Of a DNA stretch of 5,983 nucleotides, positions 2,795-5,240 are shown piece after piece. Both the position numbers and the translations under genes were made by a program. Source of the DNA: Muribaculaceae bacterium (GTDB taxonomy: Bacteria; Pseudomonadota; Alphaproteobacteria; Rs-D84); the NCBI GenBank assembly GCA_023665245.1, contig JAMPEH010000152.1:1-5983 (forward strand), written 5' to 3'. A model generated the notes under the pieces. The model saw only the letters and a program-made list of their open reading frames with translations. It searched no databases and was not told the origin of the DNA. Within the stretch, counting starts at the first letter, position 1, and each line of letters opens with the position of its first letter.

Positions 2795-3415
2795 ATGCAA
2801 AGGCCCAAAAGACACAGGAAACGCCGGCGCACACCCGGCAGGCCGGCAGCCGTGCTGCTGGCCATATTCGCCACGGCCATGTCCATCGGCACGTTCTGCT
2901 CCGCAGGCGACGCGCCCGCAGGCGGGCCAGCCCAGAAGCAGATGCTTGCCAGCGTCAGCTCGCCCGCCACGCAGCCCGCGGAAACGCCCGACATGCCGCT
3001 GCCGGAGCCGGAAGCGCCTGCCTATGGGGATACCGAAGCCGAGACGATGGCCAAGATGCTCTGGGGCGAGTGCCGGGGCTGCAGCCGGCTCCAGCAGGCA
3101 GCGGCGGCCTGGTGCGCCCTGAACCGCGTGGACGACCCGCGCTGGCCCAATGACGTCATATCCGTCATCACCCAGCCCTGCCAGTTCTATGGCTACGACC
3201 AGGGAAACCCCGTCACCCAAGAGCTGCTTGACGTGGCAAACGACGTGCTGGCCCGGTGGGAGCTCGAAAAAGCCGGCCAATATGACAGCGGCCGGGTGCT
3301 GCCGAAAGACTACGTCTTCTTCACCGGCGACGGCGTGCTGAACCACTTCCGGACGGATTTCGCAGACACCGGATCGTGCTGGGACTGGTCCCTGCCGAGC
3401 CCGTATTATGACTGA
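2795..3415 (+). CDS. SleB-like cell wall hydrolase with an N-terminal membrane or signal segment
   Basis: The 206-residue protein begins with a very basic arm (MQRPKRHRKRRR), followed by a hydrophobic stretch at about 18-35 (AAVLLAIFATAMSIGTF), which is a signal peptide or membrane anchor. A Pro/Ala-rich linker runs to about 77. Residues 82-200 resemble the Hydrolase_2/SleB catalytic domain: AKMLWGECRG (86-95) corresponds to the family's x-x-I-x-GEARG motif with the predicted catalytic glutamate E92, then AWCALNRV (105-112), PNDVISVITQPCQF (118-131) and a C-terminal part. SleB-type enzymes cut peptidoglycan as lytic transglycosylases. In a mobile element this would act outside the membrane for wall passage or lysis. 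Cysteines at 93, 96, 107, 129 and 195 could form disulfides. The cysteine at 35 is preceded by Phe, so it is not a proper lipobox. Confidence 0.8.
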   Translation: MQRPKRHRKRRRTPGRPAAVLLAIFATAMSIGTFCSAGDAPAGGPAQKQMLASVSSPATQPAETPDMPLPEPEAPAYGDTEAETMAKMLWGECRGCSRLQQAAAAWCALNRVDDPRWPNDVISVITQPCQFYGYDQGNPVTQELLDVANDVLARWELEKAGQYDSGRVLPKDYVFFTGDGVLNHFRTDFADTGSCWDWSLPSPYYD

Positions 3416-3434
3416 CCCAAAGTAGGAGAGATTA

Positions 3435-3617
3435 TTGCCGGAAAATGCCCATGCCGCCAACATGGGCGATAAAAAAAAACACTGGCATCTTTTGCCCGGA
3501 GGCCAGGCATCCATGCCAGGTATTGCGCCAGGGCGCCCAAAGAAGATTGCCTCTGTCCGAAGCGTGCGGCCCGCGGGCCCGCGGGCGGCTGCACAGCGAT
3601 CAGAGGGCGGACTATAA
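3435..3617 (+). CDS. Possible small protein with a TTG start, 60 aa (weak)
   Basis: A TTG at 3435 lies six bases after AGGAG (3424-3428), which is good ribosome binding site spacing. The 60-residue product (MPENAHAANMGDKKKHWHLL onward) is basic and has no recognised motif. Codon choice drifts from that of the neighbours: it contains CGA, CTA, TTG, TCT and GGT. The frame also runs across the inverted repeats and the minus-strand terminator signature. The Shine-Dalgarno is the only support, so it may be spurious. Confidence 0.2.
   Translation: MPENAHAANMGDKKKHWHLLPGGQASMPGIAPGRPKKIASVRSVRPAGPRAAAQRSEGGL
3442..3467 (-). terminator. Second, weaker minus-strand terminator-like hairpin
   Basis: On the minus strand GCCCATG (3467-3461) pairs perfectly with CATGGGC (3453-3447) around a seven-base loop, followed by A then four T. 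The T-run is short, so alone this would be weak. It lies directly downstream of a better terminator (3471-3519), which suggests a tandem backup. On the plus strand the hairpin is followed by a run of A, not T, so it does not terminate the hydrolase transcript. Confidence 0.35.
3471..3519 (-). terminator. Intrinsic terminator on the minus strand
   Basis: Read on the minus strand, CTGGCAT (3519-3513) pairs perfectly with ATGCCAG (3488-3482), then comes TG and nine consecutive T (3479-3471). The 24-base loop can hold a nested short stem (GCCT with GGGC, one G-U pair), which would shorten it. Stem plus immediate long T-run is the standard factor-independent terminator layout. All genes here read rightward, so a leftward terminator implies a leftward transcript starting somewhere to its right. 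Confidence 0.6.
3550..3606. repeat. Nested inverted repeat around an 18-bp perfect palindrome
   Basis: CCTCTG (3550-3555) pairs with CAGAGG (3601-3606). Inside, GTGC (3564-3567) pairs with GCAC (3591-3594), enclosing the perfect palindrome GCCCGCGGGCCCGCGGGC (3569-3586). The three levels are nested, as in an RNA stem with internal loops. A dimeric protein-binding site at the palindrome is an alternative. In GC-rich DNA part of this could be chance. Confidence 0.5.
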
Positions 3618-3627
3618 ATCCGATCAC
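3596..3627. repeat. Inverted repeat, alternative to part of the nested stem
   Basis: GCGATC (3596-3601) faces GATCAC (3622-3627). This gives six pairs on the minus-strand RNA, including one G-U, with an inner GGA/TCC stem around a seven-base A/T-rich loop (CTATAAA on the plus strand). It shares base 3601 with the neighbouring CCTCTG/CAGAGG stem, so the two would compete at that point. Confidence 0.35.
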
Positions 3628-3663
3628 GGGCGCCTCCTGGCTTTCAGTGCCAAGCAACCTAAC

Positions 3664-3708
3664 GCCGGGAGCGTAAACGGCCCGGCTTGCCGCAGGGCCC
3701 TGCCGGCA
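3664..3708. repeat. Two adjacent GC-rich hairpins
   Basis: GCCGGG (3664-3669) pairs with CCCGGC (3681-3686) around an 11-base loop. Directly after it, TGCCGCAGGG and CCCTGCCGGCA form a near-perfect inverted repeat with one bulged base (3688-3708), centred on the palindrome GCAGGGCCCTGC (3692-3703). No T-run follows on either strand, so these are structural, not terminators. Confidence 0.45.
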
Positions 3709-3747
3709 CAGACGTGCGCTGGCAGGCGCGCTGCGGGACAGGAATAC

Positions 3748-3796
3748 AAAAAGGCCCCTATGCGCAGACCGGGGCGGCGCCAAGCCGTGCCGCCCC
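3748..3796 (-). promoter_or_regulatory. Attenuator-like pair of mutually exclusive hairpins (candidate)
   Basis: On the minus strand GGGGCGGC (3796-3789) pairs perfectly with GCCGCCCC (3778-3771). The GCCCC part of the latter (3775-3771) can instead pair with GGGGC (3758-3754), which is followed by C and five T (3752-3748). The two stems share bases and cannot coexist, which is the arrangement of an antiterminator and a terminator. The downstream stem has only five pairs and a 12-base loop, so it is weak. On the plus strand, the 8-bp hairpin alone could structure the helicase mRNA leader. Confidence 0.25.
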
Positions 3797-3854
3797 CGCG
3801 CTGCCATAGCCATCGCAACACAGAAACAGGGCATCCATACAGTAGGGACATATT

Positions 3855-5240
3855 ATGCAGGAATACCGGTACCCCGAAATCTACAAGACGCTGAACAGCG
3901 ACCAGAAGATCGCCTTCCAGATGCTGGCCTACGGCCAGAAGTCCGGGAAAAATTACTTCCTGACCGGGGACGCCGGCACGGGGAAGTCCTATTTGATTGA
4001 CGCGTTCTATCAATTTTGCTGCCTCAACGGCATCACCATGCTGAAATGCGCGCCCACCGGCGTGGCGGCGACCAACATCGGCGGCGTGACCATGCACCGC
4101 ATGTTCCGGCTGCCCCTGTCCGTGCTGACGGACAAGATCGAGGGCACCCAGTTCGCCAATATTTACAAACTGGTCAGCCGGGCCGACGTCATGTTCATCG
4201 ACGAGATCAGCATGGCCCGCGTGGACGTCTTCGGCAACGCCATGGCCCAGGTCCGGGAGGCCAACAAGATCCGCGCCAGGAACAGCAAACCGCCTGTCCA
4301 GATCATCGTCTGCGGGGACTTCGGCCAGCTGATGCCCGTGGTCACGGACAAGGACCGCGAGATCTACCAGCAGCTCACCGGGGCGGACATCGGCACCGGG
4401 TGCTGTTATAATTCCCACTGGTGGTCCGACCTGGACTTCCAGCCTATTTTGCTCAGCCAGCCCATGCGCCAGTCCGACCAGGCGTTCTGCCGGGCACTTG
4501 ACAATTTAAAGCTGGGCATCAAGTCCGACATCGACTACCTGAACGCCAACACGGCGCAGCAGCCCCTGAAGGACGGCATCTGGCTGTGCGGGTACAACAA
4601 CACGGCCGCCGAGAAGAACGCCCGCGGCATCTACAACCTGCCCGGCGAGGTCCTGACCAGCCGCGCAGTTATTACAGGCAAAGCAAACATCAAGCAGACC
4701 AACTTCGCCGAGAACTTACTGTACAAGCCCGGGGCGCGTGTCGTCATGACCATGCGGGAGCTCGGCAACCGGAACAGCCCCTATGACAACGGGTCCCTTG
4801 GGACGATCCTGGAAGCCCGCCGGGACTTCGTGAAGATCCGGCTGGACCGCGGCGTGACCGTGGACGTCCCCCGCGTCAAGCTGCCCTTTTATGAATATGA
4901 GGTCTGCGGCAGCTCCGTGGAGCCACGCGAGGTCGGCACGGTGACGCAGTTCCCGTTCAAGATCGGGTACGCGATCACCATACACAAGTCCCAGGGGCAG
5001 ACATATGATAAAATGAACGTCGTGCCGGAGATATTCGCGCCGGGCCAGCTCTACGTGGCCATGTCCCGCTGCCGGGAAATCGCCAACATCTACGTCCAGC
5101 CCGACGGCTACGGCCGCCGGATCACCCCGGAGAAAATCCTGCCGAACCCCGAAGTGATTAAATTCCTGATCTCCCAGGACGCCATGTACGCCGACTTCAA
5201 GAGCTACTTCGAGAAAAATATTTTCGACCCGGCGGCATGA
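3855..5240 (+). CDS. PIF1-like ATP-dependent DNA helicase (superfamily 1B)
   Basis: The 461-residue protein carries the full PIF1/RecD-type motif set in order. The Walker A is GDAGTGKS (38-45, K44 binding ATP phosphate), followed by APTGVAATNIGGVTMH (66-81). Walker B is FIDEISM (114-120, D116/E117). Motif III is CGDFGQLMPV (153-162), and motif IV is LSQPMRQSD (200-208, R205). The C-terminal GYAITIHKSQGQTYDKM (371-387) is motif V, and QLYVAMSRC (398-406) is motif VI with R405 as arginine finger. All catalytic residues are present, so it should be active. PIF1 helicases unwind DNA 5' to 3' and act in replication, recombination and G-quadruplex or RNA-DNA removal. ATG 3855 follows AGGGA (3844-3848) by six bases, a weaker site than those of its neighbours. 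It sits alone after a structured 439-base gap, so it probably has its own control. Confidence 0.92.
   Translation: MQEYRYPEIYKTLNSDQKIAFQMLAYGQKSGKNYFLTGDAGTGKSYLIDAFYQFCCLNGITMLKCAPTGVAATNIGGVTMHRMFRLPLSVLTDKIEGTQFANIYKLVSRADVMFIDEISMARVDVFGNAMAQVREANKIRARNSKPPVQIIVCGDFGQLMPVVTDKDREIYQQLTGADIGTGCCYNSHWWSDLDFQPILLSQPMRQSDQAFCRALDNLKLGIKSDIDYLNANTAQQPLKDGIWLCGYNNTAAEKNARGIYNLPGEVLTSRAVITGKANIKQTNFAENLLYKPGARVVMTMRELGNRNSPYDNGSLGTILEARRDFVKIRLDRGVTVDVPRVKLPFYEYEVCGSSVEPREVGTVTQFPFKIGYAITIHKSQGQTYDKMNVVPEIFAPGQLYVAMSRCREIANIYVQPDGYGRRITPEKILPNPEVIKFLISQDAMYADFKSYFEKNIFDPAA

Follow-up and report, generated by a model that had tools for sequence, protein, structure and literature searches.

The window analysed here is a stretch of 5,983 bases in which nine genes were read, all of them rightward, with the last one cut by the window end. 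Between the genes for a cell wall hydrolase and a PIF1/Dda-like helicase lies a gap of 439 bases (Table 1), and the minus strand of this gap carries what appears to be a transcription terminator. The question raised by the locus is what such a leftward signal does where the neighbouring genes run the other way. A preliminary description had explained it by an undescribed, structured leftward RNA of up to about 350 nt. The hydrolase matches phrog_30550 across residues 5-205 of its 206, and the helicase is listed in the protein database on one contig only, of 5983 bases.

Table 1. Features of the gap and of its two flanking genes (positions are those of the window).
Feature	Position	Strand	Details
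Cell wall hydrolase gene	2795-3415	+	PF07486; phrog_30550
Non-coding gap	3416-3854		439 bases, between hydrolase and helicase genes
Second leftward hairpin	3447-3467	-	-12.4 kcal/mol; A, then TTTT at 3445-3442
Nine-T tract	3471-3479	-	A9 on plus strand; two bases past hairpin
Leftward terminator hairpin (predicted)	3482-3519	-	7+7 pairs, -21.2 kcal/mol, 38 nt
Candidate rightward promoter	3590-3618	+	TGCACA-17-TATAAA; rank 46
Stem-loop with lowest z of the sub-ranges tested	3690-3736		z: plus -4.37, minus -3.44
Weak third terminator-like site	3754-3775	-	GCCCC/GGGGC, -8.9 kcal/mol, then CTTTTTG
Candidate leftward promoter	3850-3879	-	TTTCGG-18-TAATAT; weak, inside helicase start; score 8.4, rank 57 in window
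PIF1/Dda-like helicase gene	3855-5240	+	PF05970; phrog_325

The absence of a gene between the hydrolase and the helicase was borne out by codon usage. With a codon table derived from the window's own nine genes, the log-odds per codon ranged from -0.28 to -0.69 in the six frames of the gap and from +0.29 to +0.69 in the nine genes. All six gap ORFs of at least 30 aa scored negative; a leftward protein gene was rejected on the scores of the three on the minus strand (-0.41 to -0.73). Four gap ORFs compared with Pfam and PHROGs matched nothing at E<=1, and for the best plus-strand ORF of the gap none of 25 candidates drawn from 5.8 billion proteins was a relative at E<=1. A second GC-rich stretch (0.69-0.72), at positions 1-218 on the left edge of the window, is probably non-coding and is cut by the contig end; its codon log-odds are negative in five of the six frames and +0.05 in the other, and its fold energy is ordinary.

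Read leftward, the hairpin at 3519-3482 has two stems of 7 pairs each, CTGGCAT/ATGCCAG on the outside and another inside it. After the hairpin come TG and nine T, the window's sole run of at least seven A or T. The outer stem formed with a probability of 0.95-0.96 in four contexts (60, 120, 200 and 370 upstream bases requested, of which the gap itself supplies at most 341). In shuffles, which allow for base composition, nine T behind a hairpin of -20 kcal/mol or lower occurred in none of 1000 copies of the window (both strands) and in one of 2000 copies of the gap. When 7 T of 9 sufficed as the tail, such a hairpin turned up in 26 of 200 shuffles of the window and in 37 of 2000 of the gap, so the significance of the terminator rests on the pure T run. 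Both this hairpin and the second one with its four T, which had been described beforehand, were thus recovered with the energies of Table 1, the first beyond chance expectation. As a predicted sequence feature, the leftward terminator is real and well supported.

The remaining terminator-like signals are less distinctive. Scoring of T-tract hairpins gave ten in the window, every one of them on the minus strand, so a T-poor plus strand accounts for part of the leftward bias, and a simple scan of positions 3200-4100 returned two terminator-like sites against 1.0 expected. Neither the scan nor the T-tract scoring placed a rightward terminator-like site within the gap. The 5' arm of the weak third site overlaps a stronger competing hairpin (arms 3789-3796 and 3771-3778), which displaces its stem in the local fold; the mutually exclusive hairpins at 3754-3796 on the minus strand might resemble an attenuator arrangement.

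Because the leftward terminator signal exceeds chance in a non-coding gap, we infer a leftward RNA, together with its transcription, promoter, pairing and effect on the helicase. In the reading that we tentatively prefer, transcription would start at a promoter close to the beginning of the helicase gene, run leftward and stop at the tandem intrinsic terminator at 3519-3442, giving a short non-coding RNA no longer than about 380 nt. Complementary to the helicase message in its intercistronic leader, this RNA would act in cis, as OOP RNA of phage lambda does, and lower helicase levels either through base pairing there or through transcriptional interference. A fuller version, in which the gap encodes a new antisense RNA, read leftward and about 370 nt long, with an internal attenuator and a tandem terminator, setting the helicase level in an uncharacterised gut mobile element, is improbable as a whole.

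Scored with promoter weights that may not match the preferences of the host sigma factors, the gap has no strong promoter site and no convincing leftward one upstream of the terminator. The best site next to the helicase start, where the leftward promoter had been presumed, ranks 57th in the window. The best leftward promoter-like site of the gap (3460-3431, rank 23, found also by the simple scan) cannot drive the RNA because it is located beyond the terminator.

Relatives of the locus were found in 2 of 11 pattern-matched stretches of GTDB contigs. Both (L001 and L002) are contigs of Oscillospiraceae MAGs with 'Lapin' in their isolate names, and their helicases are 66% identical to that of the window. 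In L001, 20 bases separate the helicase from a preceding 359-aa gene, which is 42% identical to the window's 364-aa gene; in L002, 28 bases separate it from the corresponding ORF. The gap is absent from the relatives' loci compared. Since nothing like its 439 bases precedes these two helicases, the gap is not a fixed helicase leader, and they do not support the idea of a conserved control element of the helicase. The 40-kb contig of L001 may be phage-like; guanylate kinase, nudix, HNH, DUF5131 and glycosyltransferase families were among the matches of 16 of its ORFs compared with PHROGs, 10 of them with Pfam too. The window also encodes a macro-domain-like protein at 1968-2486 (phrog_335 phosphatase; Pfam Macro under the cut-off), with 38% identity along 68 residues to a 151-aa gene at L001 3217-3672.

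In both relatives, past the gene after the helicase, there is a hairpin that is T-rich on both faces, with leftward ORFs behind it (L007 10922-12000; L002 6122-7200). One leftward ORF, of 281 and 275 aa, is common to both, with 157 of 282 aligned positions identical; by eye it is lipoprotein-like. Terminator sites of -20 kcal/mol or lower with 7 T of 9 numbered four in 48,377 bases of the relatives (L006, L007 and L002). Two of them (L007 127-165 and 19178-19228) are rightward and just past the ends of rightward ORFs; a third, leftward (L007 10955-10922), is behind the leftward ORFs and is the leftward face of the T-flanked hairpin; the fourth, also leftward (L007 10779-10739), is inside a rightward ORF, within 190 bases of its end, and downstream of the leftward unit ending at 10955-10922. 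Three of the four mark plausible transcript ends. The statement that every gene reads rightward therefore holds for the nine genes of the window but not for these two relatives, and tandem leftward terminators, unexpected against all genes of the window, are less so where leftward ORFs of the relatives have such terminators. These observations make a leftward unit in the window plausible and weaken the premise that leftward signals are foreign to the element.

The same observations suit another reading, in which the terminator insulates the hydrolase operon by halting leftward transcription, stray or antisense, that arrives from the side of the helicase, with no dedicated RNA. A strong terminator without an evident promoter, with ordinary structure on the minus strand and no conservation found, agrees with this reading, and in both relatives the leftward ORFs end at a T-flanked hairpin that faces the helicase side. 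On the other hand, it leaves unexplained the 335 further non-coding bases between the terminator and the helicase, and we consider it unlikely, though it stands next after the antisense RNA.

The folding of the gap bears on the antisense RNA from the other side. Over the whole gap, the z-score was -4.34 for the plus strand and -2.54 for the minus strand with 100 shuffles, of which none and three, respectively, folded as well as the gap; with 150 shuffles the values were -4.35 and -2.17. Among the 14 ranges tested, the plus strand scored lower in 11; the three that favoured the minus strand (3471-3600, 3541-3655 and 3420-3530) are all in the left part of the gap and all above -1.4. The claim of at least five stem-loops on the minus strand is correct for the predicted fold, but that strand is unexceptional and the plus strand folds better. 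Against windows from a relative, in a rough comparison given their shorter length (290 bases) and 30 shuffles each, 3 of 92 fold below -4.35 on the plus strand, and at least six of 92 minus-strand windows reach -3.6 or lower. Fold energy was rejected as proof of an RNA gene, since the relative's other DNA reaches z -6.9 (the lowest window, L006 at 7831), including stretches read as ORFs.

When the gap was compared with 4227 Rfam families, as the preliminary description had proposed, none matched at E<=1; the window has three matches at E<=1, all below the gathering threshold. The structured leftward RNA of about 350 nt is a candidate, with a terminator that is well supported as a sequence feature. 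Where two rightward genes adjoin, at 1683-1736, the minus strand has a sub-threshold match to the a1/b1 targets of C4 antisense RNA (E 0.0039; 25 bits against a gathering threshold of 46.7).

The better fold of the plus strand suggests that the functional RNA could instead run rightward, as a structured 5' leader of considerable length on the helicase message or as a processed RNA, and that the nine T of the opposite strand would be incidental. The whole-gap scores and the 11 of 14 ranges agree with this, and a candidate promoter is available on that strand (Table 1). However, the background windows that fold better still, the lowest of them where ORFs were read, the two relatives without such a leader and the lack of an Rfam match in the gap all count against it, and it leaves the T9 terminator without explanation. 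A rightward leader is quite unlikely.

Homologous gaps upstream of related helicases, which the preliminary description had looked to for covarying base pairs, were sought and none was found. By blastn, the gap had no match in phages or plasmids. In IMG/VR, two of four 18-base gap patterns had no match and the other two led to three contigs (L011-L013), which were rejected as homologues, with 18-19 bases in common and nothing longer at E<=1. A DNA search of 388 genomes gave only three short matches, of 28-40 bases, all ascribed to chance: two (L015 and L016) are inside single ORFs, of 149 and 326 aa, of an otherwise open frame, and the third (L014) belongs to a GC-rich repeat that occurs there in several copies, in a region with many open frames.

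Relatives of the flanking genes were sought as well. Three phage records (L008-L010) have a hydrolase relative, with 50-52% identity along 60-62% of the hydrolase, and nothing like the gap. In IMG/VR, the hydrolase led to two pattern-matched stretches and no relative. The helicase had no match there; with two 7-residue patterns present in all of 26 aligned helicases, 15 stretches fitted a pattern and none encoded a relative. The element family thus seems to be missing from the IMG/VR viral collection. Genome samples gave relatives in 1 of 400, 1 of 35, 1 of 394, 1 of 391 and 1 of 377 genomes (the samples of 400 and 377 overlap), and these were the same two again. Eighteen helicase protein clusters at 73-82% identity (P0002-P0019) are known as proteins only. 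Relatives of both helicase and hydrolase are recorded on contigs of 14,251 and 201,590 bases; judging from the equal sizes, these are probably the same contigs.

In a further reading, the gap works as DNA, as an origin of replication or transfer, or is inserted or decaying sequence, with hairpins that act, if at all, at the DNA level. GC-rich palindromes, the adjoining helicase gene and the absence from this place in two relatives are in its favour. Nevertheless, the repeat search showed just three two-copy direct repeats of 8-11 bases and no iteron array, and plasmid and phage DNA gave no match. The helicase leader resembles the sequence past the hydrolase stop to a degree reached by 30 of 2000 shuffles, but in real DNA 34 of 2755 windows score as high, the place itself possibly included. 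An insertion with target duplication was rejected, the likeness of the gap's two ends being within this background. A DNA-level element is improbable. Finally, the nine T might be three AAA lysine codons seen from the opposite strand, within a small rightward gene of 60 aa with TTG at 3435 and the Shine-Dalgarno sequence AGGAGAG. This is very improbable, for although the ribosome site of this ORF is well spaced, judged by reading, and the 16 codons after the start score slightly positive (+0.24), positions 3504-3614 are strongly non-coding (-0.99), the whole ORF scores -0.54 against a minimum of +0.13 among equal stretches of the window's genes, and it has no Pfam, PHROGs or phage match.

The leftward antisense RNA is therefore placed first, as the most likely reading, followed by the insulating terminator, the rightward leader, the DNA element and, last, the small gene. 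Its predicted terminator shares with intrinsic (Rho-independent) terminators a stable, GC-rich hairpin with a T tract right behind; it is unlike the typical ones in that the hairpin is composite, with 7 outer and 7 inner pairs, and opposes all window genes read. Among larger RNAs, GOLLD and ROOL are linked to phages, and Rfam includes models of both. PMC12286853 presents these large bacterial RNAs as non-coding and structured; the gap is likewise non-coding and predicted to be structured, whereas it has no Rfam match at E<=1. A literature search combining Oscillospiraceae, jumbo phage and noncoding RNA found no paper.

The OOP RNA of phage lambda is encoded next to the replication genes, between cII and O, which both read rightward. 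PMC5869508 describes it as a leftward small RNA with its own promoter and a hairpin terminator, which acts on an overlapping message and overlaps the end of cII by 52 bases. As in OOP, the terminator of the gap opposes the flanking genes. Unlike in OOP, the T tract ends at 3471 and leaves 55 bases to the stop codon of the hydrolase gene (end 3415); and while the transcription of OOP is known, the gap RNA is predicted from sequence alone, and no sequence relation is claimed. Because the overlap with a coding end is absent and the promoter is unproven, the gap RNA is not claimed as a member of the OOP type. If the terminator only insulates, the locus would be ordinary. If the RNA is real, the pO-oop-tO unit of lambda would be its closest counterpart in working, and the locus would be a case of a helicase gene under OOP-like antisense control, carried by a mobile element seldom seen in the collections searched.
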